A program made the translations under genes and the position numbers. Source: Cerasicoccus sp. TK19100 (GTDB lineage: Bacteria > Verrucomicrobiota > Verrucomicrobiia > Opitutales > Cerasicoccaceae). From it: a DNA stretch of 64,000 nucleotides. This document shows positions 35,270 through 51,038 of this stretch, piece by piece. Under the pieces are notes generated by a model. That model saw nothing but the letters and a program-made list of their open reading frames with translations, ran no database searches and was not told the DNA's origin. The first letter of the stretch is position 1. Each line of letters starts with the position of its first letter. The stretch spans positions 372,001-436,000 of the forward strand of contig NZ_JAPWDU010000004.1 of NCBI RefSeq assembly GCF_027257155.1, given 5' to 3'.

Positions 35270-38200
35270 ATGAAACAGCCAAACAGTCACAAAAAGCGCA
35301 GCTCAGGCTTTGCCCTCGTGATCAGCCTGACGCTCATGGCTTTCATGATTGTTTTGATTCTATCTCTTGCCACTCTCTTGAGAATCGAAACGAATCTGGC
35401 CGCCACCGAAAAAATCCAAATGGAGGCACGCCAGAACGCACTTTTGGGCATGCAGATTGCCCTCGCAGAGCTGCAGGTATTTGCCGGCCCCGATCAACGG
35501 ATCACCGCTCGGTCCGACCTGGAACTCGGGCCCGACGCAGCCAACCCATACTGGGTAGGCGTTTATGGCAATGCGATCAAGCCCGACTACGGCAAAGATC
35601 CGGTCCAAATTGCAACCGAGCTCACCAATGTCGACACCGACCGCTCACCCAACACCGTAAATGACAATGGCTCCTCCGCCATGCTGCTCAACTGGCTCGT
35701 CAGCGGCAATGAGGTAAATCCGTTTCTCTCCACAGTCAATATCGGCAACGACGGTAATGTCATCCAGAAAGTGGACCCCGACAGTATTCCCTACAAGCCC
35801 GGCATGGCTGTTGACGGTTTGACCCAAGTTACGCCAGCCACAGATACTAGCCTGACCGTCGGCGGCCAACCGGCCCGTGTCATGGTTGGCCCCGGCTCCG
35901 CGGCAAAAATACGAGACTATGTCGTCGCGCCCGTCGTCGAAGTAACCACAACCGACAGCAATGGCGGCTACGCCTGGTGGATCGGCGATGAAGGTGTCAA
36001 AGCATCGGCGAATCTCCCACTGGAAACCAATGACTCGGATAAAATTTACGCGTTCACCAATGCCAAACGCTCGGCGATCGAACTGATGGCCGATGGGTTC
36101 GAGGACGAGGAAGACCTAGCCGCCTCAACCATCAGTGACCGCTACGATCCGAATAGCAGCGAACTGAGCAAATTGACCAATCCAATGGAGTTGGCCGTCA
36201 TTTCGACAGATCCCAATCAAATGTCCGCGATTCTTAAAAATCGCTACCATGACATCAGCCCACAGACACAGTCCGTGCTGTCCGACACCTACGCGGGCGG
36301 CCTGAAGCGCGACTTGAGCATTCTGCTCGACGAATCGTATATCGTTGGCAGCACCGACCCCACCGCAGACCAAAATCGGATGTGGACGCCTCACAGCGGA
36401 GACGTCCATGGCTACACCGAAGGGTTTGGCATTCCTACCTGGAAGCACCTCAGGTCTTTCTATCAAACACGCGTCCCCACCAGTGGCAGCGGTGCCTATG
36501 AGCTGGAAACAATCATGCCTGCGCATGACAAAGATGGCTTTGATGACCATGTTGGCGTCGAGCCAGTCCTCACCTACTTCTCGATTGGATTTCGCGCCGC
36601 GCCTACAGCAGAACCCGCCGCAGATGTACCGATTCACATAAACCTCTACCCGCTGGTCGTTCTGTGGAATCCCTACAATTTCACACTCAAAGGCAAAGAG
36701 CTGGAGGTAGGCTTTTATCCGACTTACAACGTGAAGGTCAGTCTGGATGTTTTCCGCGAAGCCCCCGACGCTGACCCCGAGTGGACCAGCATTGGTTACG
36801 TCGATTTCCAGCAGGAGTCTGATGGCCTGGACAACAACCATACTGAATACATTCGCTTCCGCCTCGATTGCCCAGACATTCCACCAGGGCAGAGCCTGAT
36901 CTTCAGCCTGCCGCACACCTCCTCTGGCGAGAGCTACAATCAGCAGAACGTCCTGAAAAACATCGAACCCGAACCCAGCGCCTATGTGCACTTCCCGATC
37001 AAGCAAGACGGCGCAGTTGTGAAAATCCAGCCCGGTGAAGAGCTTCTTGATTATCGCTTGGTCGGCCGCAGCAACTCCAGCAGTTTCAACCGAGGTGGCG
37101 GCGGCGAAGCAAATATCTACCTCGGCGATCCGGTAAGCAGCCGCGTCAGCACAGGTGGCGGTACCCTGGATCAATCCGACGAAAAGATGAACCCATCGGC
37201 GTCATTCCGCCGTTGGCATAATGCCCACCAAAGAATTGGATGGGACAGCATCGTGGTGGATCAGGTGACCGATTCTGACGGCACCAAGCGAAGCGTTCAA
37301 CAAGCAGCAGGCCCGCTCGTCTTCGATGTCGAAGGCTCAGAACCTTCCTTCGTCTTTTTAGCGCAAGCTCTGTTTGGCGGCTACGGGCAGAATGCACAGC
37401 TCAACACAAACCAGCACATGTTCACCACTCGCTGGATTGCCCAGGGCAATATGCGAGCCGTGCGTTCCGGCAGAACACGCCGCGACAGAAACTATAACCC
37501 GTTGTTCACGGCTACGGCTGGATCCCCCGATGTAAATACCCCTTGGCAAAAGTTCAATAGCGGTGATGGCACGAACAGCAACCGGGTTTCCGCTGGCCTC
37601 GGGCATGACTGGATTAACAACGAACCGGTCGACGCCATTTTGTTTGAGTTCCCTTACGAGGACCAGCGCCTCATGTCCATTGGGCAACTCCAGCACGCAA
37701 ATCTGTCCTTTGTGGGTGCCTATCCGAGCTATCCGATCGGCAATAGTCTGGCCGACTATCGCCTGCACGATGCACCGGTAAAGATGTATCCAACGGCTCC
37801 TCCCGGCTACCAACTCGTGCGTATCGACCACGCCCAAGACAGCTTCGGCGGGCTCAAAGAATTGGGCCGTGATCTCTTTGGCTATTACGACATCTCCTAT
37901 TTGCTCAATCGCACGCTCTGGGACCAATACTACTTCTCAACCATCGATCCCGGAGAGCTCAGTAGCGGATACAGCGATCTGAAAAACCCGCGCATGCATG
38001 TTTATAATGCAACCCCGGATCACAATGACCCCGATCAAACTGCGGCGGCGCTCATGGTCGATGGCGGCTTCAATATTAACTCCACTTCAGAGCAAGCATG
38101 GCGGGCCATTCTTGGCGGTGCGAATCAGTTGGAATACGATCCCGAAAATCCCAACTCATCCAACCCGGATACGCTTAAGTCGGCCTTTTCGCGTTTCAGT

Positions 38201-38908
38201 CGCCCCAGCTCCGATAGCGATCCCAATGTCGCCTTCCAAGGTTTCCGCGAACTGGACGATGAGCAGATTGCCCAACTGGCGCGCAATATCGTGGAAGAAG
38301 TTCGCAACCGCGGGCCTTTCACTTCGCTGTCAGACTTCGTGAACCGCCGCCTGGTTGACAACCCGAACACTGTCGACGACGTCGACCACGAACCATGGGA
38401 GCACGAATACCTGCGTGGCACGATCCAAGCCGCAATTGATCGTAGTAGGTCCAGCAGCAATGATGGCGAGTATCCCGCTAACGATGATCAGTTGGAATTC
38501 TGGGAGAGTGATGAAATCACCAATAAGATTCAACAGACACAATTCACCGAAGGTGCCTATGACCGGACACAGCTCCTGGGCGGTGAAAAGGCATATAAGC
38601 CAATCAGCAACCGATCTGCTTTCGCCCCGAATTACCTAACCCAAGCGGATGTCTTATCGACGATTGGTGCCAACCTCTCAGCCCGCTCTGACACCTTTGT
38701 CATTCGTGCCTATGGCGAGGTCAGCAATCGCTTCAATACAGGCGAGCCGATGGCCCAAGTTTGGTGTGAAGCTGTCGTGCAGCGCACCCCGGAATACGTG
38801 GACTCCAGCGAGGATGCTCACGACGATCCAATTAATCCTGAAAATCGAAACTTCAATCGACGTTTCAAAATCATTGCTTTCCGATGGCTTACGCCCGACC
38901 AAGTTTAA
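35270..38908 (+). CDS. Very large pilin-like protein (Verru_Chthon cassette A type)
   Basis: A 1,212-residue protein with a type IV pilin-like leader: a short basic start (MKQPNSHKKRSSG), then FALVISLTLMAFMIVLILSLATLL as the hydrophobic helix and ARQNALLGMQIALAELQ. Prepilin peptidase would cut after the Gly at 13. The rest is an enormous extracellular region rich in Asn, Asp, Tyr and Trp. Its size and start match Verru_Chthon cassette protein A, a pseudopilin-like family of Verrucomicrobiota, usually with B, C and D partners that are absent here. FTSLSDFVNRRL near 1020 resembles PilX/GspK-type helix-hairpin segments. It overlaps the next gene by 25 bp. Confidence 0.72.
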   Translation: MKQPNSHKKRSSGFALVISLTLMAFMIVLILSLATLLRIETNLAATEKIQMEARQNALLGMQIALAELQVFAGPDQRITARSDLELGPDAANPYWVGVYGNAIKPDYGKDPVQIATELTNVDTDRSPNTVNDNGSSAMLLNWLVSGNEVNPFLSTVNIGNDGNVIQKVDPDSIPYKPGMAVDGLTQVTPATDTSLTVGGQPARVMVGPGSAAKIRDYVVAPVVEVTTTDSNGGYAWWIGDEGVKASANLPLETNDSDKIYAFTNAKRSAIELMADGFEDEEDLAASTISDRYDPNSSELSKLTNPMELAVISTDPNQMSAILKNRYHDISPQTQSVLSDTYAGGLKRDLSILLDESYIVGSTDPTADQNRMWTPHSGDVHGYTEGFGIPTWKHLRSFYQTRVPTSGSGAYELETIMPAHDKDGFDDHVGVEPVLTYFSIGFRAAPTAEPAADVPIHINLYPLVVLWNPYNFTLKGKELEVGFYPTYNVKVSLDVFREAPDADPEWTSIGYVDFQQESDGLDNNHTEYIRFRLDCPDIPPGQSLIFSLPHTSSGESYNQQNVLKNIEPEPSAYVHFPIKQDGAVVKIQPGEELLDYRLVGRSNSSSFNRGGGGEANIYLGDPVSSRVSTGGGTLDQSDEKMNPSASFRRWHNAHQRIGWDSIVVDQVTDSDGTKRSVQQAAGPLVFDVEGSEPSFVFLAQALFGGYGQNAQLNTNQHMFTTRWIAQGNMRAVRSGRTRRDRNYNPLFTATAGSPDVNTPWQKFNSGDGTNSNRVSAGLGHDWINNEPVDAILFEFPYEDQRLMSIGQLQHANLSFVGAYPSYPIGNSLADYRLHDAPVKMYPTAPPGYQLVRIDHAQDSFGGLKELGRDLFGYYDISYLLNRTLWDQYYFSTIDPGELSSGYSDLKNPRMHVYNATPDHNDPDQTAAALMVDGGFNINSTSEQAWRAILGGANQLEYDPENPNSSNPDTLKSAFSRFSRPSSDSDPNVAFQGFRELDDEQIAQLARNIVEEVRNRGPFTSLSDFVNRRLVDNPNTVDDVDHEPWEHEYLRGTIQAAIDRSRSSSNDGEYPANDDQLEFWESDEITNKIQQTQFTEGAYDRTQLLGGEKAYKPISNRSAFAPNYLTQADVLSTIGANLSARSDTFVIRAYGEVSNRFNTGEPMAQVWCEAVVQRTPEYVDSSEDAHDDPINPENRNFNRRFKIIAFRWLTPDQV

Positions 38909-39624
38909 TCTTCATACTCACGCTCTTACTCTGCACCACAAAGTCATTTGCGCAGCAGAACAACCAGGCAGAAACGGCTCCACCGCAGTTTCGCGTCGTC
39001 TGCCTGACCGATGCACTCCAAGCCATGTATGATAATGGCAAGGATGACGAGGCGCACATCAACATCTCCATGAGCAATCTTTCGCGGCTCTATACCGCGT
39101 ATGATCGGCGCGTCACGTTTTATCAGGAAGTAGAGAATCCAGACCCCACGAAGCCCCCTTTACGCCAGACCATTGCGCAGGTCACCTTGCCCAACGGCCC
39201 CGGGCCATTCCTTGTGTTGATGCAAAGAGCGCAACCTGGCTCCGAGATTCCCTACGAGACCATGGTGATCGATCATTCGCTCGAACAGCACCAGGCAAAC
39301 TCCTATCGCTTGTTCAACTTCAGCCACCGCAATTTAGCCGTGTCGCTGGCCGATAAGCAGTTTCTCCTCCAGCCCAGAGAGGCTGAATACGTAGTCTATC
39401 CCGACAAGCGCAAGGCATGGCTAAAGGTTGCCGTCGACAGCGAAGATAACGGCTGGATCGTCGCCCAGAGCTCACCCCATGTCGTCGGACAGGATACGCG
39501 GACAATGATTTTTCTCTGCGACATCCCGCCCACGGAGCGCGACCCGAACCCGCTCGGGATCGCAGTGCGCAAGTTCCGCGAACGCATTACCACCGACGAG
39601 TTCGGCGTGCAGCATATTCGCTAG
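38884..39624 (+). CDS. Secreted protein of unknown function, coupled to the pilin-like gene
   Basis: A 246-residue protein with a signal peptide (LIFILTLLLCTTKSFAQ). The mature part is beta-rich (RRVTFYQEVENP, NSYRLFNFSHRNLAVSLADKQFLLQPREAEYVVYP) and ends AVRKFRERITTDEFGVQHIR. I know no family for it. It starts inside the end of the 1,212-residue gene in another frame, so the two are almost certainly translated from one mRNA, and it may be a periplasmic helper or a subunit of the same surface structure. Confidence 0.72.
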   Translation: MAYARPSLIFILTLLLCTTKSFAQQNNQAETAPPQFRVVCLTDALQAMYDNGKDDEAHINISMSNLSRLYTAYDRRVTFYQEVENPDPTKPPLRQTIAQVTLPNGPGPFLVLMQRAQPGSEIPYETMVIDHSLEQHQANSYRLFNFSHRNLAVSLADKQFLLQPREAEYVVYPDKRKAWLKVAVDSEDNGWIVAQSSPHVVGQDTRTMIFLCDIPPTERDPNPLGIAVRKFRERITTDEFGVQHIR

Positions 39625-39991: not shown

Positions 39992-42328
39992 ATGAGTAAG
40001 ATCATAACGCCTGCTCGCGTTGCGTACGCATCGCTTGCGCTCGCACTAAACCTCGCGACGAGCTACGCCCAACCCACCCCTCCCCTCCCAGGGAGTTGGA
40101 CTCTCACCTTTGAAGAAAATTTTGATGGTTCCAATCTGGATGGCGACCAATGGAGAGTCGGGCAGCACTACCCCGGCATTGCCGGAAGCGGTGGCACCGA
40201 CCCCGAGCAAATAACGCTCGAGGACGGAGCCCTGAAAATAACCGCAGCGGAAAAGCCAACCGTCTACGGCGGAACCAGCTACAACTACGCATGCGGTGAA
40301 ATCAGCACCTTCAAACTCTTTAAGCAAAAGTATGGTTACTTCGAATGCCGCATGCGCTACCACGCCGTTCAGGGCATGTGGCCAGCGTTTTGGCTGATGC
40401 CGGACCGCGCCGAATACGGCTGGGATGGCAAATACCGTGAGTCATACCTGAAGTTTGACCTGAGCTCGGTTACCGCTGGTTCGGTCAGCAGCGCCGTACT
40501 TAAGCTAACGCCCACCAATGTCGAAAGTTCCGGCGGCCAGCCCAATATTCTGGTTAAGAAATGTGCGGACGACAGTTGGACCGAAACCGGTCTCAATTGG
40601 AACAATCGTCCAACGCCCGATCCGCTCTACATCGACCAACTTTATGGAACCAGCGTGCTGGTGGCCAATACGACCGTTGATGTCGATGTAACCGACTACA
40701 TTAATCAGGAACTCGCCGGTGACGAGACAGCCTCGTTCGCCTTAGTGGATTCCTTCATGCGCAGCAGAACGATCACGCTGGCGAGCCGCGAACACGGCAC
40801 GACCAGCTACCGTCCACAACTCGTCATCGATGGTCAGACGATTTACCCGTCAGCAGACGCCTATGCGTTGAAGTCTGCGCCAACGACCAACTACGGCACG
40901 CAAACGACACTACTTGTATCCGACGCCTATGGCAACTTCGATACAGCGCATACCTTTGGTGATGGCAACGAAGTGGACATTATGGAGTCGCTCGGCCGCT
41001 GGGGCCCCGACCGGACGCAGCATGCCGTGCACTGGGACGGCTACAGTACCAGCCACAAGAGCGTGGACTCAGGCCACATCGCCTATCCCGGTGACGGCGA
41101 CGACTACCACACCTACGGTCTCTACTGGGAAAGCGGTCGCTATGAGTTCTACGTCGATGGCGTGAAAACCTATGAGTGGGTCAACGCCGAGGTGATGGAA
41201 ACTGAAGCATTCATTATCCTGTCGCTACAACTAGGCGGCTGGGATGGCAGCGTCATCGAAGATGTCGATGGCCGCTCACTGGAAGTCGACTACGTTCGCG
41301 CTTGGAGCGGCACGAAGTCTGGCACAGCCACACCCGGCGGCGGCGAAGGCCCGGCCCCGACTTATACCACCGTCAGCGTTGATGAGGATGTTTATGTCCG
41401 CGCCGGCGACTATGCTGACAACAACTACGGCAGCGAAGTCGAGCTACTCTCGAAGACGCTTTCGGACATGGATTACACGCGTCAAACTTACCTCAAATTT
41501 GACGTATCCAGCCTCGATCCACATTCGGAACGCATCGAGCTCGTGCTCGATCCAGTCGTTGGCCCATCACCGATCGAAACGCGAATCTACGTTAAAGAAT
41601 GCGATGTGGATTCGTGGTCCGAATCGACGATCACCTTCAACAACAAACCGGGCTACGTCGCAGACATGGTCAACTCCCGTCGCATGAAGACGACGGACAC
41701 AGACTTCGTCATCGACATCACCAACTACGCCCGCGAGCAGATAAATGGAGACGGCACCATGAGCATCGTGATCCATTCTGAGATCGACGGCTCCTACACC
41801 CGCTTCCACAGCCGGGAATCGACGACGGGCAATGCGCCGTATCTTCGCGCCACCCTGGCACCGGCTGGCTCCAGCAACTACATCGTGCTGAATTTGGGCG
41901 ACATGAGCGGCTACTCCACGCAAGACTCGGGCTCGGGCTCCGTCAGCGGAGACGGCCTATCCGTCACCCTCAGCGGCAACACCTGGAAAAAGTTCCCACT
42001 GTCTTATGCCGTCACCAGTGACACGGTTCTTCAGTTCACGGTAGAGGGCTCCGACGCAGGTGAGATCATTGGTATTGGTCTCGACGAGAATAATGACTAT
42101 CAGGACAACGTTCGAGTGGTCGCTCTCGGCGGCAGCCAAATCTGGACCGGGGCCTACGCCATCGACCCAGCCGACCAATACACCGCCGGCAGCGGCCCGG
42201 TCAGCTACGAGATTCCACTTGGTTCGATCTACACTGGCTCCATGTCGTATCTGGTCTTTGTTGGCGATGATGACGCCAACGCCTCGACTTCAATTACGTT
42301 CTCAAACATCGAGCTAATCGAAGACTGA
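39992..42328 (+). CDS. Secreted GH16 glucanase with a DNRLRE module inserted in the catalytic domain
   Basis: An exported glycoside hydrolase of family 16. Residue numbers here count from ATG 39944; ATG 39992 (residue 17) gives a better signal peptide ending TSYAQ. GH16 features are WTLTFEENFDG, KYGYFECRMRYH and WPAFWLMPDR, then after an insert the catalytic EVDIMES (343-349), AVHWDGY and VDYVRAW. The insert (about 161-336) is a DNRLRE-type beta module whose first strands (DAYALKSAPTTNYG) come at its end, a circular permutation. A second, normally ordered DNRLRE module (about 485-640) and a final beta domain follow. Probable substrate is a beta-1,3(4)-glucan such as laminarin; this is not certain. 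Confidence 0.88.
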   Translation: MSKIITPARVAYASLALALNLATSYAQPTPPLPGSWTLTFEENFDGSNLDGDQWRVGQHYPGIAGSGGTDPEQITLEDGALKITAAEKPTVYGGTSYNYACGEISTFKLFKQKYGYFECRMRYHAVQGMWPAFWLMPDRAEYGWDGKYRESYLKFDLSSVTAGSVSSAVLKLTPTNVESSGGQPNILVKKCADDSWTETGLNWNNRPTPDPLYIDQLYGTSVLVANTTVDVDVTDYINQELAGDETASFALVDSFMRSRTITLASREHGTTSYRPQLVIDGQTIYPSADAYALKSAPTTNYGTQTTLLVSDAYGNFDTAHTFGDGNEVDIMESLGRWGPDRTQHAVHWDGYSTSHKSVDSGHIAYPGDGDDYHTYGLYWESGRYEFYVDGVKTYEWVNAEVMETEAFIILSLQLGGWDGSVIEDVDGRSLEVDYVRAWSGTKSGTATPGGGEGPAPTYTTVSVDEDVYVRAGDYADNNYGSEVELLSKTLSDMDYTRQTYLKFDVSSLDPHSERIELVLDPVVGPSPIETRIYVKECDVDSWSESTITFNNKPGYVADMVNSRRMKTTDTDFVIDITNYAREQINGDGTMSIVIHSEIDGSYTRFHSRESTTGNAPYLRATLAPAGSSNYIVLNLGDMSGYSTQDSGSGSVSGDGLSVTLSGNTWKKFPLSYAVTSDTVLQFTVEGSDAGEIIGIGLDENNDYQDNVRVVALGGSQIWTGAYAIDPADQYTAGSGPVSYEIPLGSIYTGSMSYLVFVGDDDANASTSITFSNIELIED

Positions 42329-42472: not shown

Positions 42473-44269
42473 CTATCGGGTCAAATCCCCCAAACCGGAC
42501 GAGCGTGGTTGGGAAAGCGGCAGCGGTGAATCAGGCGAAGAAGGCTCCAGTGATGCTCGATACTGCTTCTGGTATTGCCCTGGCGTCATGCCCACTAACT
42601 TCCGAAAAACCTTGGCAAAGTGAACCGGGTCCGAGAAGCCGGACTCATCCGCGGCATCATTAATGTATGTGCCCGGCGTCCTCAACTTCTCCATCGCCAG
42701 ATCAATGCGTGACCGGCGGATGTAATCGCTCAAGTTTCTTCCCGTGTGTTGCTTGAAAGCGCGGCTCAAAAAGTCAGGGTGACACTTCAGATGCGCGGCG
42801 ATGGTTTTAATGTTAAAATTCTCCCGAATATTCTCATCCACATAACGAATTGTTGCCTTGATGATATACGGCTGCGGCGTCTCTGTGGTGTTGATGTATT
42901 GATTCAGGCTCTCGCCGTTGGTCTCGATCAGCTCCTTGTACCAGAAAGCCGAATCCTTGAGCAAGCGACGCTGAGACTCGTAGTCGACATAGACCAAACC
43001 GAATCGGTGCTTGTAGCCCTCTTGCCATTCGAAGTTGTCCATGAACGACCAGTGAAAATAGCCGCGGATATCAATGCCTTCATCGAGCGCTCTCTTTAAA
43101 GAGATCAGATATTCGACAAGGAAATCGATACGGTTGTGATCGTGGACTCCCCCATCGCGGTTAACCTGATCGCCGATAGACAGGCCGTTCTCCGTGATAA
43201 CTATGGGCAGGCCATACATCTCCTGAATCAGACGCGGGCCCCAGTAAAGAGACGCAGGTGCCTGATGCCATTCGTAGAGCGACAGTGGCTGACCGGGTGA
43301 TTGCTTCGCCATAACGGGCGCTCCGTCCGGCCCTGGCTTCACGGGAACGCCCTGAAAGATATTGCACCCAAAGAAATCGATAGGCTGCTTGATAATGTCA
43401 AAATCCGAATCAGGCACCTTTGGCGCATCCTTACCATACACCAGCATGCCATCCTCCGGATAACCACCGAGTATCACCGGGTCCACCCACCAGCGATTGT
43501 TCCAAATCGTACCAGGAAAAATGGCCTTCATTGCTTGTTGCGCGGCTTTGATATCTTCCAGCCGTGGCGTTGCCGGACAGTAGATTGGCCCCGCTGGCGA
43601 CCAGCCGATCTGCGGCGGCTTTTTTGCCTTCTCCCGTATTGCCATCACCGCGCGTCCGTGGGCAAGCAGCACATTGTGTCCCGCCAGCAGCACCTCCTTC
43701 AAACAGCACTTAAGACCCGGCGCATGCTCACCGGTCAAATAGCCTAAGCCAAGAAAGCACTGCGGCTCGTTAATGGTTATCCAGTTGCTCACGCGATCGG
43801 ACAAACGCTCGGTCACCACACCGGCATACCTCGCAAAATGTCCGGCGATATCCGGATTGAGCCAACCGCCCCGCAGATGCAATGCATAGGGCAGCTCCCA
43901 ATGAAAGAGCGTCACCCAAGGCTCAATGCCATGCTCAAGCAAAGTATCAACGAGGCGATCATAGAACGCCAGCCCGTCATTGTTCACCGGGCCAAATCCA
44001 TCGGGCACCACCCGCGGCCACGATACTGAAAACCGATATGCCTTGATGCCCATCTTGGCCATCAGTTCCACATCGTCACGATACCGCTGATAATGATCAC
44101 ACGCGATACGGCCATCGTGGTCGTTCCAAATTTTCCCCTCCTGCTGTGTAAAAGCGTCCCATATGGATGGTCCCTTCCCATCGGCATCGGGCGAGCCTTC
44201 GATTTGGTAGGAGGATGTGGCCACGCCCCAGGTAAAATTATCCGGAAAAGAAGTGGATGTCGTGCTCAT
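42473..44269 (-). CDS. GH1 beta-glucosidase fused to an AraC-type DNA-binding domain
   Basis: A 598-residue cytoplasmic fusion. Residues 1-450 are a complete GH1 enzyme: FPDNFTWGVATSSYQIEG, acid/base Glu168 in TINEP, nucleophile Glu360 in VITENG, and HWSFMDNFEW. Both catalytic residues are intact. Residues 465-571 are an AraC/XylS DNA-binding domain with two helix-turn-helices: NIKTIAAHLKCHPDFLSRAF, then YINDAADESGF and FAKVFRKLVGMTPGQYQ. It could hydrolyse glucosides and report them to promoters. It is divergent from a GH16 gene. No signal peptide. The frame extends to 44428 (ATG) and has an ATG at 44353, but homology starts just after 44269. Confidence 0.9.
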   Translation of the reverse strand: MSTTSTSFPDNFTWGVATSSYQIEGSPDADGKGPSIWDAFTQQEGKIWNDHDGRIACDHYQRYRDDVELMAKMGIKAYRFSVSWPRVVPDGFGPVNNDGLAFYDRLVDTLLEHGIEPWVTLFHWELPYALHLRGGWLNPDIAGHFARYAGVVTERLSDRVSNWITINEPQCFLGLGYLTGEHAPGLKCCLKEVLLAGHNVLLAHGRAVMAIREKAKKPPQIGWSPAGPIYCPATPRLEDIKAAQQAMKAIFPGTIWNNRWWVDPVILGGYPEDGMLVYGKDAPKVPDSDFDIIKQPIDFFGCNIFQGVPVKPGPDGAPVMAKQSPGQPLSLYEWHQAPASLYWGPRLIQEMYGLPIVITENGLSIGDQVNRDGGVHDHNRIDFLVEYLISLKRALDEGIDIRGYFHWSFMDNFEWQEGYKHRFGLVYVDYESQRRLLKDSAFWYKELIETNGESLNQYINTTETPQPYIIKATIRYVDENIRENFNIKTIAAHLKCHPDFLSRAFKQHTGRNLSDYIRRSRIDLAMEKLRTPGTYINDAADESGFSDPVHFAKVFRKLVGMTPGQYQKQYRASLEPSSPDSPLPLSQPRSSGLGDLTR

Positions 44270-44815
44270 CGGTAACGGGAAATTCGGGGGTAATTCAGAA
44301 GATACCTTTGCGGTGATAGGTCGATTTTCAGAAAAGTATCTTTGTAGACTCATAGTCGGCTTGCCACAAAAAAACGGTCGATACCTGACATAGTCCTCCA
44401 CTGGCTTATCGAATGGACTTATCCGCAAATTAAGAGCACTACGGTTAATTTATGGGCTTACCGTGGCCAACCTCATTAGTGTTAGGCATTCACTTCCCCG
44501 CCAGCTCTCGGCAAAGCCAAAACTTGGAACTCGCCCATTTCACACCGCACTAAAGGCTTAAACGAGCTTCTCCAACACTCAACCATCTCGCTAGTTCTCC
44601 GGGGCGTATCCACTACGAACACCACGCCCAGCGATCAAGAATGGCCACCCGTTCGCTTTCGCCGCTCTGAAATTCACCGTAATTCAGATCAGCTATAGAC
44701 TACCCGAAACGCAAGAAAGCGTATATAGTCTATCCATCACCAAGCACAGTGAGACGCCTGCTTCACTGCTGCTTCTCCTTAACCCCCGTACTCCAACATC
44801 CGATACCATTTACAG
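44270..44815. other. Divergent intergenic region GH1-AraC / GH16
   Basis: This region must hold the promoters of both genes. The GH1-AraC frame is open in 44270-44428, but homology does not support translation there. The main feature is the inverted repeat at 44694-44735 near the GH16 start. No RNA gene is seen. Confidence 0.5.
44694..44735. promoter_or_regulatory. Candidate operator between GH1-AraC and GH16
   Basis: ATAGACTA (44695-44702) and TAGTCTAT (44726-44733) are perfect 8-bp inverted arms 23 bases apart, 80-120 bases before the GH16 start. The right arm extended is ATAGTCTATCC, whose complement GGATAGACTAT recurs exactly at 48041-48051 before the third GH16 gene. AraC proteins bind paired half-sites of this size. 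Binding by the GH1-AraC protein is a hypothesis. Confidence 0.45.
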
Positions 44816-46759
44816 ATGCGAAAATTGAATGCATTGTTGCTTCTCGCTTTTAGTATTAGCGGCCTCAACAGCCACGCCGCCGATACCCAAGAAATACTGG
44901 ATCTCGATTCCCCCACGATCACCGAGTCCATCAAACCCAGCTCCTCCCAAGTCACGGTTGAGGAAAGCACGAACGCCAGCGAACCCGGTGTGATCATGAC
45001 CGTCACACCCGGCAGCGAAAATTACCCCGGCATAGAGTTTCAACCAACGACAGGGACTTCCTGGGATTTATCGAACTACGGCCATGTCGCCGTGACCGTC
45101 ACCAACATTGGTAAAGAGTCGATGTCAGTAAGCCTGCGCGTTGACAACGCCTACGAGGCCGGTTCATCCCCATGGAACACCGAGAATACTTACCTGAAAG
45201 AAGGCCAAACCAAAACGATTAAAGTCATTTTCGGCTACGCCAATGGCAACAAGCCCAGCTACAAGCTGGACCCTGCAAAAATCACCCGTATCCTCGTCTT
45301 CACCGGCAAAGTTAAGGACGAGCGCAAGCTGCTGATCCAATCTCTGGTGGCCGGTGGACCGTCCGGTGAGAAGCCGCCTGTCGACCCGAGCAAAATCAAA
45401 GTGGCCCCGCAAAATGGCTACATTCTCGGGCAAGGCATTCCGCTCGATGTGGACAAGCAAGTGAAGGTTGACGGCGATGTCCACGTGCGTCCATCTCCCG
45501 AGGACAAACACGCGCTGCAAATCGCTTTCAGCGATAAAGGCCAATATGCGAAAGTATCACCGCCCCAAGGCAAGTGGCGCCTGATTGACGGAAACCAAGT
45601 CGTCTTCAAGGTTCGCAATATGGGTAGCTCCAGCGTCTCCCCGACGATCAAACTCGATAGCGAGAAAGGCCCCACCAGCGGCAGCCAGCCCAAGAGCCCC
45701 ATCGCACCGGGAGAAACCGGCGAGATCATTGTCTCCTTTATTCCAGAAACTCCATGGCGCGGCATCACTGGGTCCAGCAAGACGAACTGGGATGGAGAGA
45801 AAGGCACCGGCACCCGTTTTGCCAGCGACAAGGTAAAGAACTTCATCGTCTCCGCCGACGCCCAAGGCGGCAAGCAAGTGATCGAAATCATTTCCGCCAA
45901 GCTCGATGCCCCAAGCATCCAGCTTCCCGAGTGGGTTGGCAAGCGTCCACCTGTGGAGGGAGATTGGAAACTGACCTTCGAAGAGGAGTTCAAAGGCGAC
46001 ACCATTGACCTGACAAAGTGGAATATCTACACCGAAAACTACTGGGACAAGCGCACGCACTTTTCCAAAGACAATGTAATCATCGAAGACGGCACAGCCA
46101 TTTTGCGCTACGAGAAAAAGCGCGGTCATCACAACGACGACCCCAATGGCAAAGTCACCGACTATGCATCCGGCTTTCTTGATACCTACGGCAAATGGGT
46201 TCAGCGCTATGGCTACTTCGAGGCACGTATGAAGCTTCCAACCGCGCCCGGCGTTTGGCCCGCGCTTTGGCTCATGCCTGATCGCGGCATCGACGAAGGC
46301 CCCCAATGGAAGCGTGCCGACACCGGACGCGGCGGCATGGAGTTTGACATCATGGAATACCTCAGCGGTTGGGGCCCCTACCGCTACAATATCGCCTTCC
46401 ACTGGGACGGCTATGGCAAGGACCACAAGCAAACCGGCACCGAGCAGATCTATGTCGCCCACGACGAGGATGGCTACATCACCACCGGCCTGCTCTGGCT
46501 GCCTGGCTACGCTGCAATCTACAACAACGGACGTCTGGTCGCCGAATGGGAAACGACGCGCATTTCCGATGTCCCGGCCGACATCATGTTCACCCATGTA
46601 TCTGGTGGCTGGGCCAATGTCCCGCTACAAGACGAGCCGTTACCGGATGATTTCGTGATCGACTACGTCCGGGCCTGGCAGCGCGCCGACTTGGCATCAG
46701 ACGTCGACGGCGTGAAGTCCACCCAGACAACTCCGGCGGCTCCAACCACCAAAGACTAA
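44816..46759 (+). CDS. Secreted GH16 beta-glucanase with two N-terminal CBM-like domains
   Basis: A 647-residue exported enzyme. Signal peptide to about residue 22 (LNSHA). Two related beta-sandwich domains follow (about 25-180 and 195-375), each with a conserved pattern of a VxVTN/FKVRN strand and a glycine-turn GETGEIIV/GQTKTIKV strand, probably carbohydrate-binding. The GH16 domain (about 383-635) has WKLTFEEEFKGD, RYGYFEARMKLP, WPALWLMPDRG and the catalytic EFDIMEY with nucleophile Glu509 and acid/base Glu514, then NIAFHWDGYG and VIDYVRAWQ. It likely cleaves a beta-1,3 or mixed-linkage glucan. It faces the GH1-AraC gene across a shared promoter region. Confidence 0.92.
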   Translation: MRKLNALLLLAFSISGLNSHAADTQEILDLDSPTITESIKPSSSQVTVEESTNASEPGVIMTVTPGSENYPGIEFQPTTGTSWDLSNYGHVAVTVTNIGKESMSVSLRVDNAYEAGSSPWNTENTYLKEGQTKTIKVIFGYANGNKPSYKLDPAKITRILVFTGKVKDERKLLIQSLVAGGPSGEKPPVDPSKIKVAPQNGYILGQGIPLDVDKQVKVDGDVHVRPSPEDKHALQIAFSDKGQYAKVSPPQGKWRLIDGNQVVFKVRNMGSSSVSPTIKLDSEKGPTSGSQPKSPIAPGETGEIIVSFIPETPWRGITGSSKTNWDGEKGTGTRFASDKVKNFIVSADAQGGKQVIEIISAKLDAPSIQLPEWVGKRPPVEGDWKLTFEEEFKGDTIDLTKWNIYTENYWDKRTHFSKDNVIIEDGTAILRYEKKRGHHNDDPNGKVTDYASGFLDTYGKWVQRYGYFEARMKLPTAPGVWPALWLMPDRGIDEGPQWKRADTGRGGMEFDIMEYLSGWGPYRYNIAFHWDGYGKDHKQTGTEQIYVAHDEDGYITTGLLWLPGYAAIYNNGRLVAEWETTRISDVPADIMFTHVSGGWANVPLQDEPLPDDFVIDYVRAWQRADLASDVDGVKSTQTTPAAPTTKD

Positions 46760-47920: not shown

Positions 47921-48223
47921 GCCCAACCAACAACCCAACACCGACTCAGTCGATCGCCTTGATCGTCGTTTAGAGCGCACGCCATCAGAATCAGCGAGTG
48001 CAGGATCAGCACGATCAGAAATTTACAGAGGCCAAGGCAGGGATAGACTATCGGCCAATCAATATCCGTGCTAGAATGATTTCATTAGCGGCATTAACGC
48101 CATGTGCTTTGCACGCATTTCACTGCGGTTAGCCGAACGGTAATCGTAGATATGGTGAGTCAGAAAAATCGCCATTGCACTGGCACTCACAGTGTAAGCC
48201 AGATAAAAATAAACATACCAAAC
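47921..48223. other. Leader of the third GH16 gene
   Basis: About 300 bases. An in-frame ATG at 48104 exists, but the signal peptide begins at 48224, so most of this is probably leader. The shared word GGATAGACTAT lies at 48041-48051. Confidence 0.5.
48041..48051 (+). promoter_or_regulatory. Shared GGATAGACTAT word before the third GH16 gene
   Basis: An exact 11-base match to the reverse complement of 44725-44735, where it is one arm of an inverted repeat before the second GH16 gene. It is 173 bases before the preferred start here. Confidence 0.4.
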
Positions 48224-49579
48224 ATGAGACCCCCATCCATTTTCAAACTAGCCACCCTGAACTGTGCCTTGCTCCTGCTGGCACCATTCACCTCGTTTGC
48301 TGACCAGCCAATCACCACCAAAGAGGCTCAGGAACTGCGCGCTAGTGTTGAAGCGATCCAGGCAGAGCTCGTACGCATCAATGAACGACTCGACACGGTG
48401 CTAGGCGCACAAACAGAAAGCGTCACCGAAGTAGACCTCTACGACAACGGGAAAAAATACCCCCCGGCTGCCAAAGTGCGCATTGAAAGTTTTGATGTGC
48501 CGGTGAACGCCTCGGTCGTCCACGTGCCAGTCACCATGGACAAGCCCAGCCCCAACACCGTCATTGCCTATGTCCGCGTTTACAACGGCGAAGGTGGCCG
48601 CGCAAATCCCGATGCGACCAAGCCAGTCATTTTCCGCCCGGGTGACCCGCTGACCAAGACCGTCAGCTTCGATGTTCGCGACATGAAGGCGGGCAACAAC
48701 CTTAAGGCCGTCCAACCTTCCGTGCCCGATGGCGCGTATCGATCCGGTGGCGGCATCCTCATCACCGCGAAGGAAGGCGCGATCAATGAACCCATTGAAG
48801 GCGGCAGTGAGCCAATTACGTTCAAGCCCTACGGCAAGCTTTGCTATGAAGCCACGGGCGAAACAATCCAGTATGATGACAAGGGCGGCCCAGGCGTTTT
48901 CTCCACCTCCCTTTCCCACGGCCGCACCCAAGTAGGCAATGGCGAAACCGGATACTACGGCACTGTCGACATGGGCGGTCTCATAAGAACGCCGGAAGGT
49001 TTAGTGTTGTCCACCCGGCGCCTGGATACCCCGGTGGAAGTCGGCTCTCCGGCAACTGCTTATCCATTTCTCGCCGTGATGTTGTCGGGTCATAAAACAC
49101 CAGACACTTACTTCAAATATGGCAGCGTCGAATGGGTCGCAAAAATGCCGAACCGCTTTGGCTCGTGGCCTGCGCTATGGCTCTTGCCGACGGGAGGATG
49201 GCCGCCGGAGATCGACGTTTACGAAGGCTTTGGCTACAACGGCTCCTGGAAGTTTTCGTCGGACCTCTCCACCAATCTTCACGGCGGGGATAATCTATCG
49301 CGCACTTTTACACGCCCAGCAATGCGCATGAAGATGAGTACATTTGGCCTGCCCAACACGCTTGATACCGAATTCCACAAGTTCGCCGTAACGGTGGACC
49401 CCGAGTGGATCATCATGTTCGTGGATGACATCGAGACCATGCGCTACGCGAACCCGTTTCAGGGCGAAACTTGGTACCCCTTGACCAACGTCGCCGTTAA
49501 GGCCAAGGTGGATTCACCTTACGATGCAGGATCCGGCGACATGGTTCTCCAATCACTGAAAGTCTGGCGGGCCGAATAA
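48224..49579 (+). CDS. Secreted GH16-family protein with N-terminal coiled coil
   Basis: A 451-residue exported protein. Signal peptide MRPPSIFKLATLNCALLLL to TSFA. A short predicted coiled coil follows (ITTKEAQELRASVEAI to RINERLDTVL, about 27-58), then a beta domain (about 70-190, SVVHVPVTMDKPS) and a GH16-like fold: FKYGSVEWVAKMPN, SWPALWLLPTGGW and catalytic PEIDVYEG with Glu329, Asp331 and Glu334 of the ExDxxE motif. GH16 proteins with EIDVYE are divergent from typical laminarinases, so the substrate may differ. ATG 48224 is preferred over 48104 because the signal peptide starts there. Confidence 0.85.
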   Translation: MRPPSIFKLATLNCALLLLAPFTSFADQPITTKEAQELRASVEAIQAELVRINERLDTVLGAQTESVTEVDLYDNGKKYPPAAKVRIESFDVPVNASVVHVPVTMDKPSPNTVIAYVRVYNGEGGRANPDATKPVIFRPGDPLTKTVSFDVRDMKAGNNLKAVQPSVPDGAYRSGGGILITAKEGAINEPIEGGSEPITFKPYGKLCYEATGETIQYDDKGGPGVFSTSLSHGRTQVGNGETGYYGTVDMGGLIRTPEGLVLSTRRLDTPVEVGSPATAYPFLAVMLSGHKTPDTYFKYGSVEWVAKMPNRFGSWPALWLLPTGGWPPEIDVYEGFGYNGSWKFSSDLSTNLHGGDNLSRTFTRPAMRMKMSTFGLPNTLDTEFHKFAVTVDPEWIIMFVDDIETMRYANPFQGETWYPLTNVAVKAKVDSPYDAGSGDMVLQSLKVWRAE

Positions 49580-49958
49580 GCCTGCTGACTGTCGCTCGCA
49601 CTGCCCTGAATGTCAGGAGCCGTACACTAACCAAGTGTACGCTCATAAACTGGTCGTGAACCATCGTCGGTAGCGGAATCTGGACTACGTGAACGCCAGC
49701 CTCATGGCCTGGTCTTCACGCAAAATTTAGCAAACAAATCGAAGACCGCAACGAGGCTTCATTGTATATTACAAAGGTTGCATGGCGGCGTTATTACAAT
49801 CGAAAAACCGATATCGGCGATGTGCAAATTATGGATCGGCTTTCGACTAACCGTATCGCTCAGCATCCATTACTATAGCGGCATAGAAGTCAGCCAGCGC
49901 TCTCGTAATAAATTTGAGACACATACTTTGGCACCGCAACAAGCATAGTCGATATGCC
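49580..49958. other. 379-base gap with an inverted repeat
   Basis: No gene is seen. CGTACACT (49621-49628) and AGTGTACG (49634-49641) form a perfect 8-bp stem around five bases, 41 bases after the GH16 stop. Without a T-run it is a doubtful terminator. The last 100 bases are AT-rich and probably contain the GH5 promoter. Confidence 0.5.
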
Positions 49959-51038
49959 ATGATTCAAACTACAGTTCCATTTCTGCGCGCCGAACGCTTT
50001 CGTCGTGGCATCAATCTGAGCCATTGGTTTTCTCAGGTGTACACAGAGCGCGGTTACAGCTTCGAGCATTTTGATACCCACACCAATCGAGACGACATCG
50101 ACCTCATTGCATCGCTGGGCTTTGATCATGTGCGCTTACCTATCGCCTGCGAGCCCATTCTGGCCATGGGGTCTCCGGGCGAGTTGCCCCTCCAGTATTT
50201 GCAACGAATCGGCAGAGCGATTAGTCAGATACATGATGCAGGTATGGCCGTCATGGTGGACATCCATCCGGAGACAGCCTTTAAAGATGAGCTCGCTCGC
50301 TCCGATGAAGCTGTTGACACCTTTATCGCATTTTGGCGGACGTTTGCATCTTACCTTAGTGCATTCGACCCAGAGAAAACATTACTCGAAATTTTGAATG
50401 AACCCTGTGTTTGGAACCCGCCTCGCTGGTCTCAGATTCAACAGCGATGCGCCAAGGCGATCCGCGAACACGCACCGGACCACACTCTCGTCGTTTGCGG
50501 CGATCAATGGTCGCAATTACCGCAGCTGTTGGAGATCGAAATACCGGATGATTCCAATCAGATCATCAATTTCCACATGTATGAGCCCTCTTCGTTCACC
50601 CATCAGGGAGCGGGCTGGGGAAACCCCTGGATGCAACATACAATCGGCTTGACCTATCCCGCCGAACAGTCGAACGCACCAACACTTCTATGCGGCCAAA
50701 CCGATCAGGACGCCATTAAACAGCTACAGGAATATATCGAAACGGATTGGAACTCGCAGCGATATCGAGAATACCTCTCACCCGCGGTTGCCCTCGGAGA
50801 GCGACTACAGCTTCCTGTCATCTGCAATGAGTTCGGCGTCTATAAAGAATTTTGCGACCGCAATTCGCGCTTAGCGTGGATTCATGATGTGATCGAAAGT
50901 TTTGAGCGTGCCGGGATCGGCTGGACCATGTGGGACTACGCTGGCGACTTCTCGATCTTGAATTCCAAGGGAAGCACACGATCGCCAGACTACGAATTAT
51001 TGAAAATGATGGGCCTTCCGGTTAATAGCCACGTTTAA
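49959..51038 (+). CDS. Cytoplasmic GH5-family glucanase/glucosidase
   Basis: A 359-residue TIM-barrel glycoside hydrolase of family 5. The acid/base is Glu148 in LEILNEP and the nucleophile Glu291 in VICNEFGVY; other family stretches are RRGINLSHWF, FDHVRLPI and VMVDIHPE. There is no signal peptide, so it acts on oligosaccharides taken into the cell, or is exported some other way. It resembles exo-beta-1,3-glucanase or cellulase-like GH5 members; the substrate is not certain. ATG 49959 starts directly before the conserved N-terminus; a TTG-type extension to 49914 is unsupported. Confidence 0.87.
   Translation: MIQTTVPFLRAERFRRGINLSHWFSQVYTERGYSFEHFDTHTNRDDIDLIASLGFDHVRLPIACEPILAMGSPGELPLQYLQRIGRAISQIHDAGMAVMVDIHPETAFKDELARSDEAVDTFIAFWRTFASYLSAFDPEKTLLEILNEPCVWNPPRWSQIQQRCAKAIREHAPDHTLVVCGDQWSQLPQLLEIEIPDDSNQIINFHMYEPSSFTHQGAGWGNPWMQHTIGLTYPAEQSNAPTLLCGQTDQDAIKQLQEYIETDWNSQRYREYLSPAVALGERLQLPVICNEFGVYKEFCDRNSRLAWIHDVIESFERAGIGWTMWDYAGDFSILNSKGSTRSPDYELLKMMGLPVNSHV

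Follow-up and report, generated by a model that had tools for sequence, protein, structure and literature searches.

Regulators of the AraC/XylS family, such as AraC, RhaR and MelR, act in sugar-use loci and are characterized by a sensor domain, usually but not universally an N-terminal cupin, followed by a C-terminal double helix-turn-helix (HTH) domain that binds DNA. Beyond this family, enzyme folds have been reused for ligand sensing in several systems, such as: Gal3p; the ROK repressors; and Klotho, which has GH1 domains without normal catalysis. To our knowledge, none of these is a GH1 domain fused to an AraC domain. In the trigger enzyme PutA an enzyme fold and a DNA-binding domain are combined in one chain that is catalytically active, and GH39-AraC proteins exist in Bacillota. 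The protein that we report here has the sensor-then-DNA-binding order, the C-terminal double HTH and the sugar-use locus of AraC, RhaR and MelR; it differs from them in that its sensor would be a GH1 barrel of 450 residues, and from PutA in that its catalysis appears to be impaired. The titles and abstract openings that made up the literature searched, with most subscription papers outside its reach, hold no description of a GH1-AraC protein, in agreement with the original prediction, which knew of none. The parts are themselves known; what is new to that literature is their combination, which would be an AraC regulator whose sensor derives from an enzyme.

The gene lies in a stretch of 64,000 nucleotides from Cerasicoccus sp. 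TK19100 (hereafter the window) and codes for 598 amino acids in a single uninterrupted frame, as originally described (Table 1). Its Glyco_hydro_1 domain (PF00232; E 8e-148, 493 bits versus a cut-off of 22.6) covers the full Pfam profile, and the AraC part is a complete two-HTH unit, matched by HTH_18 (PF12833; E 8e-20, 71 bits versus a cut-off of 33.6) and in two stretches by HTH_AraC (PF00165); both domains are thus as had been proposed. The HTH also matches the AraC, RhaR and MelR models. By Pfam and in the structural model the GH1 domain alone precedes the HTH, and the cupin sensor (AraC_binding) is absent. The AlphaFold2 model (28 sequences; mean pLDDT 89.5 over the whole model, pTM 0.77) places the GH1 barrel before helices 487-574; its top PDB matches are GH1 β-glucosidases, the closest being Ks5A7 (TMt 0.97 in a whole-model comparison, which describes the GH1 part). 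Glu168 (INEPQ) and Glu360 (ITENG) align with the catalytic positions that, according to PDB titles, are mutated in Br2 β-glucosidase (E163Q and E350G); the relevant text of PMC7817009 assigns the acid/base role to the Glu in NEP and that of the nucleophile to the Glu in TENG. Upstream of the ATG the frame stays open to 44428. In the orthologue from Cerasicoccus frondis (locus L040), which is 98% identical, it opens merely 24 bases upstream of the same ATG, and 44269 is therefore the likely start. The N-terminus, MSTTSTSFPDNF, does not have the look of a signal peptide when judged by eye.

Table 1. The GH1-AraC fusion gene, its parts and its neighbours, in window coordinates.
Feature	Coordinates	Strand	Basis
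GH1-AraC fusion gene, 598 aa (P0001)	42473..44269	(-)	Uninterrupted frame, ATG at 44269, stop ending 42473
GH1 domain, residues 6-452, (β/α)8 barrel, proposed sugar sensor	42914..44254	(-)	Pfam, AlphaFold2 model, PDB match
Linker into the AraC domain, residues 453-489	42803..42913	(-)	Pfam, dN/dS, model
AraC/XylS-type double HTH, residues 490-569	42563..42802	(-)	Pfam HTH_18/HTH_AraC, model helices 487-574
Glu168, catalytic acid/base position, present in window copy	43766..43768	(-)	Alignments
Phe305; Tyr in stand-alone GH1s	43355..43357	(-)	Alignments
Glu360, nucleophile position, present in window copy	43190..43192	(-)	Alignments
Divergent intergenic region, fusion/GH16 gene	44270..44815	(.)	Weak motif match, inverted repeat
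GH16 gene divergent from fusion, proposed target	44816..46759	(+)	Pfam; similarity cluster recurs beside fusions
Second GH16 gene with CBM96/DNRLRE modules, convergent with fusion, proposed target	39992..42328	(+)	Domain search
Third GH16 gene, possible target	48104..49579	(+)	Domain search
GH5 gene, possible target	49914..51038	(+)	Domain search

The fusion is old and is conserved in part of the Verrucomicrobiota. Searches of overlapping samples (54 genomes of relatives, 372 of the order, 384 of the class and 387 of the phylum), together with a scan of named genomes, recovered a first set of 28 distinct full-length proteins from 18 genomes. A family search added two more from two further genomes, to give 30 distinct fusions from 20 genomes. 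The named carriers include C. frondis, C. arenae, a Verrucomicrobiia MAG and a Rariglobus MAG. The genome of the window itself carries a second fusion, which is 59% identical to the first and likewise has a member of the window's GH16 cluster next to it. Among the 387 phylum-wide genomes, a sample that includes the window's own class, no fusion was found outside the class at E <= 1e-155; in this sample, as in those of the order and class, up to three candidates were scored per genome, and divergent or extra copies could escape. When 84,980 species were scanned for six short peptide patterns taken from the window protein, an approach that reaches close relatives only, 49 loci were returned, with four full fusions, all verrucomicrobial. 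In a maximum-likelihood tree of the 28 fusions and 40 stand-alone GH1s, from which ten active-site columns were excluded, the fusions form one clade (UFBoot/SH-aLRT 100/99), and a broader, faster tree of 90 rows also groups them (SH-aLRT 99); they have a single origin on the tree. Among the verrucomicrobial GH1s there is also a long branch from a 5.4-kb contig filed under an Oscillospiraceae MAG (L044, 2027-3499), which is possibly a case of erroneous binning or of transfer.

Both the GH1 and the HTH domains are under purifying selection. Between the window and C. frondis proteins dN/dS is 0.015 in the GH1 part, 0.054 in the linker and 0.011 in the HTH, and it is 0.032 and 0.078 in the GH1 part of two further fusion pairs, in which every member carries Asp as the acid/base; saturation of dS in several other pairs leaves some segments with no dN/dS. 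A sequencing or assembly error at the junction, the check that the original prediction had called for, is excluded by the relatives (28 plus 2), by the second fusion in the same genome and by the low dN/dS of the linker.

The fused GH1 domains differ from their stand-alone relatives in the active site. We compared 119 distinct GH1 ORFs, i.e. 28 fusions and 91 stand-alone enzymes, after dropping 10 partial ORFs. Each of the 28 fused domains lacks one or more of ten active-site residues, and in 27 of them Tyr305 is among those missing: this position is Phe in 25 fusions, Ser in two and Tyr in one (L118, where Asn303 is instead replaced by Ser), versus Tyr in all 91 stand-alone enzymes. We take Tyr305 to be the partner of the nucleophile, and the corresponding Y298F mutant of the Agrobacterium enzyme is reportedly crippled. 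The relevant text of PMC8819650 and PMC7817009 contains nothing on this tyrosine. Changes at the other active-site positions are seen in 10 of the 28 fusions. The acid/base Glu168 has become Asp in six, and the nucleophile Glu360 has become Gln or Lys in two, with L117 showing both changes; neither occurs in the 91 stand-alone enzymes. Hence, a catalytic Glu is lost in seven fusions, while both are present in the other 21, including the window copy. The residues that contact the sugar are nearly invariant: Gln22, His123 and Trp415 in 28/28, and Trp407 and Glu414 in 27/28. Exceptions among the stand-alone enzymes are a different residue at Asn303 in six of the 34 more distant ones, the absence of Glu414 and Trp415 from one, and a gap at Gln22 in two rows. 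Relative to the characterized β-glucosidases Br2 (8J3M) and T. maritima BglA (1OD0), the fusion has in common the fold and most active-site residues; it differs in the replacement of Tyr305, Br2 having Tyr at this position, and in the added AraC domain.

When all columns were scanned, 56 proved nearly fixed in the stand-alone GH1s, eight of which are relaxed in the fusions (N167, E168, Y305, Y352, E360, N361, N412 and F413). These comprise four of the ten named active-site positions versus four of the 46 elsewhere (Fisher p = 0.027, a descriptive value, as the active-site positions were chosen with the pattern already in view and the sequences are related to one another). By parsimony on the tree, position 305 requires three changes and positions 168 and 360 two each. 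The loss of the tyrosine is therefore mainly one old, retained event, whereas losses of the glutamates are repeated, and the 27 tyrosine losses in the 28 fusions do not amount to 27 independent facts. A prediction for further fusions was set down beforehand: the named searches gave no new fusion, and the added family searches gave the two later ones, both with Phe305, which is a weak test since each is about 85% identical to L109. Eight further stand-alone GH1s have Tyr305 and the other nine active-site residues (nine partial ORFs were dropped here, and the stand-alone match L180 is the same protein as that of L047). Overall, Tyr305 is missing from 29 of the 30 fusions (27 Phe, two Ser) and kept in 99 of 99 stand-alone enzymes.

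These alignments show a loss of catalytic residues in the fusions together with retention of most of the sugar-contacting ones. As the GH1 domain has been kept while its chemistry has apparently been lost, the best interpretation is that of a binding domain, and the loss of Tyr305 suggests that its main function today is to sense sugars for the control of glucan-digestion genes. We consider it likely that the fusion is a one-component regulator of the AraC kind, in which a former GH1 β-glucosidase has replaced the usual cupin as the sensor. The GH1 barrel would bind a β-glucoside or a short β-glucan in the old active site; members that keep both glutamates might turn the ligand over slowly, and those without the nucleophile would probably not turn it over at all by the normal route. 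The ligand-bound state would in turn alter the activity of the C-terminal double HTH, which is proposed to control its own gene along with nearby genes for GH16, GH1 and other functions in glucan use. As regards ligand binding and the identity of the ligand, DNA binding, the direction of regulation and the target of the window copy, this proposal is one that we infer.

Of the one-piece trigger enzyme that had originally been envisaged, the part that is likely to hold is thus the sensor-regulator in one chain; its other part, ordinary hydrolysis of β-glucosides, is at odds with the tyrosine and glutamate losses, and the description of the window protein as an active hydrolase is probably wrong, to judge from its Phe305 and from the contrast at this position between the fusions and the stand-alone enzymes. 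A true trigger enzyme would hydrolyse β-glucosides at useful rates, with the catalytic cycle or the occupancy of the site setting the activity of the AraC domain. The 21 fusions with both glutamates, the window copy among them, would fit such an enzyme, as would the complete Glyco_hydro_1 profile in all eight fusions scanned with Pfam and the absence of a close stand-alone GH1 from the window genome; we nevertheless regard it as unlikely, in view of the near-general loss of Tyr305, of the other active-site changes and of the purifying selection that persists on the GH1 part in pairs with an altered acid/base, where full catalysis can therefore not be the trait that is retained. The window protein may still have residual or real activity, because both catalytic glutamates are present and because the NCBIfam model TIGR03356, which it matches above the cut-off, calls it a β-glucosidase.

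A further variant, which lies partly inside the sensor-regulator reading and which we put forward tentatively, as a doubtful but specific proposal, is that the signal is covalent: loss of Tyr305 would slow the release of the sugar from the nucleophile, such that the glycosyl-enzyme intermediate builds up and acts as an ‘on’ state that carries its own timer. This could apply to the members that have both glutamates; plain binding would be enough where the nucleophile or the acid/base is lost.

The genomic setting of the fusions is consistent with a role in glucan use. In the window, the fusion is divergent from a GH16 gene in a glucan locus, as had been noted in the original prediction; the locus has three GH16 genes and one GH5 gene. 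In 24 of the 28 loci, an ORF from the similarity cluster of this GH16 gene is found at most about 8.5 kb away from the fusion, with the qualification that in three of these 24 the sole cluster ORF is shorter than 250 residues, and that genes were called mechanically, with Pfam run on some representatives. In the convergent GH16 enzyme (39992-42328, plus strand), two pieces of GH16 match flank a DNRLRE match at residues 148-279; the CBM96/DNRLRE module is apparently inserted inside the catalytic domain. Further upstream, the plus strand codes for a protein of 1212 residues (35270-38908), whose start resembles a type IV pilin by eye, and its partner of 246 residues (38884-39624). Neither has a Pfam or NCBIfam match, and their clusters recur beside fusions in 17 and 12 of the 28 loci, respectively.

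A close stand-alone GH1 shares the locus with the fusion in 17 of the 28 cases, and in at least seven (L031, L042, L109, L110, L117, L119 and L121) it is the next gene, transcribed divergently. This arrangement would suit a GH1 part that acts without any sugar, either through dimerisation or by receiving its signal from contact with the stand-alone GH1 or another protein. Such a role is quite improbable in our estimate: it would not need the near-invariant sugar-contacting residues, and the window genome offers no close stand-alone partner, at the locus or elsewhere, its two other GH1s being 46% and 40% identical. The window genome has 37 AraC-type HTH matches over the cut-off, and the open frame around the match exceeds 420 residues for none but the two fusions.

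The nearest non-fusion HTH among the loci compared is that of a PocR-type AraC regulator (PF10114 plus HTH_18; L047, 6760-7944), which shares 64% identity with the HTH of the L113 fusion across 106 residues; its sensor is a PocR domain instead. A stand-alone GH1 that belongs to the wider group is about 2 kb away from its gene. In this region (L047, 2500-8000) the GH1 is flanked by an AraC-like gene on one side and by the PocR-AraC gene on the other. The fusion may have arisen by the joining of neighbours such as a stand-alone GH1 gene and a PocR-type regulator gene. The same GH1 protein occurs as L180 in genome G609, which also bears the fusion L121; hence, it represents a neighbour family and not the ancestor.

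The notion that the fusion is an artefact or a neutral read-through of two genes with no joint function, for which one could cite the Shine-Dalgarno-like sequences with in-frame starts near the junction of 17 of the 28 fusions, at places that shift from one to the next, has a negligible chance against 30 distinct fusions in 20 genomes, the single clade of the 28 tested and the purifying selection on both domains. A free AraC domain made from an internal start may occur but is not supported: the candidate starts are inconsistent in place and the window copy has none with a Shine-Dalgarno-like sequence near its junction.

One AraC domain binds two boxes about one helical turn apart. An expectation-maximization search of the 350 bases that precede each of the 28 fusion starts yielded an AraC-like motif with two boxes at such a spacing, atntGtCnnTTnCtGAc, with a log-likelihood ratio of 125 versus 58, 62 and 62 in three shuffled controls (150 seeds for the real set, 60 for the controls). 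Scored with a matrix built from 17 of these sites, sequence beyond the training regions (481 kb) has 26 sites of at least 16 bits versus two in one shuffle, and 20 of the 26 fall in the 68 kb (14%) of non-coding or start-proximal sequence, counts to be read with the shared ancestry of related loci in mind; some sites precede GH16, GH1 and sulfatase genes. The motif thus recurs in the clade before fusions and neighbouring genes. Counted genome-wide, a loose form of the pattern does not separate 11 fusion genomes (100 versus 40 in the control) from 10 others (65 versus 36).

The evidence for an operator appears strong in the clade and weak at the window locus. Four of the 28 loci have no site of at least 13 bits: the window, C. 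frondis L040, L113 and L028. The divergent region of the window has a weak match of 10.0 bits at about 44377-44393 (minus strand), and the best score anywhere in the window is 11.4 bits. The second recognition helix starts with Pro in four fusions (window, L040, L041 and L118), with Arg in 23 and with His in one. Hence, it is possible that the window fusion has a changed operator; L041, which also has the Pro, still has motif sites of 15.6 and 15.4 bits. A candidate for a regulatory site in the window is an inverted repeat at 44693-44735, upstream of the GH16 gene, with the halves ATAGACTA and TAGTCTAT. The repeat is unchanged in C. frondis, and one of its halves recurs at 48043-48050, upstream of the third GH16 gene.

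If the sensor-regulator reading is true, a whole glycoside hydrolase has been recast as the sensor of a transcription factor in bacteria, and, if its covalent variant is true as well, that factor would be switched by the trapped catalytic intermediate of a crippled glycosidase. As close stand-alone enzyme relatives often adjoin the fusions, the step from enzyme to sensor is open to study residue by residue. The automatic name ‘β-glucosidase’ given by TIGR03356 would then conceal a regulator, and the fusion is a candidate regulator of glucan use in Verrucomicrobiota.
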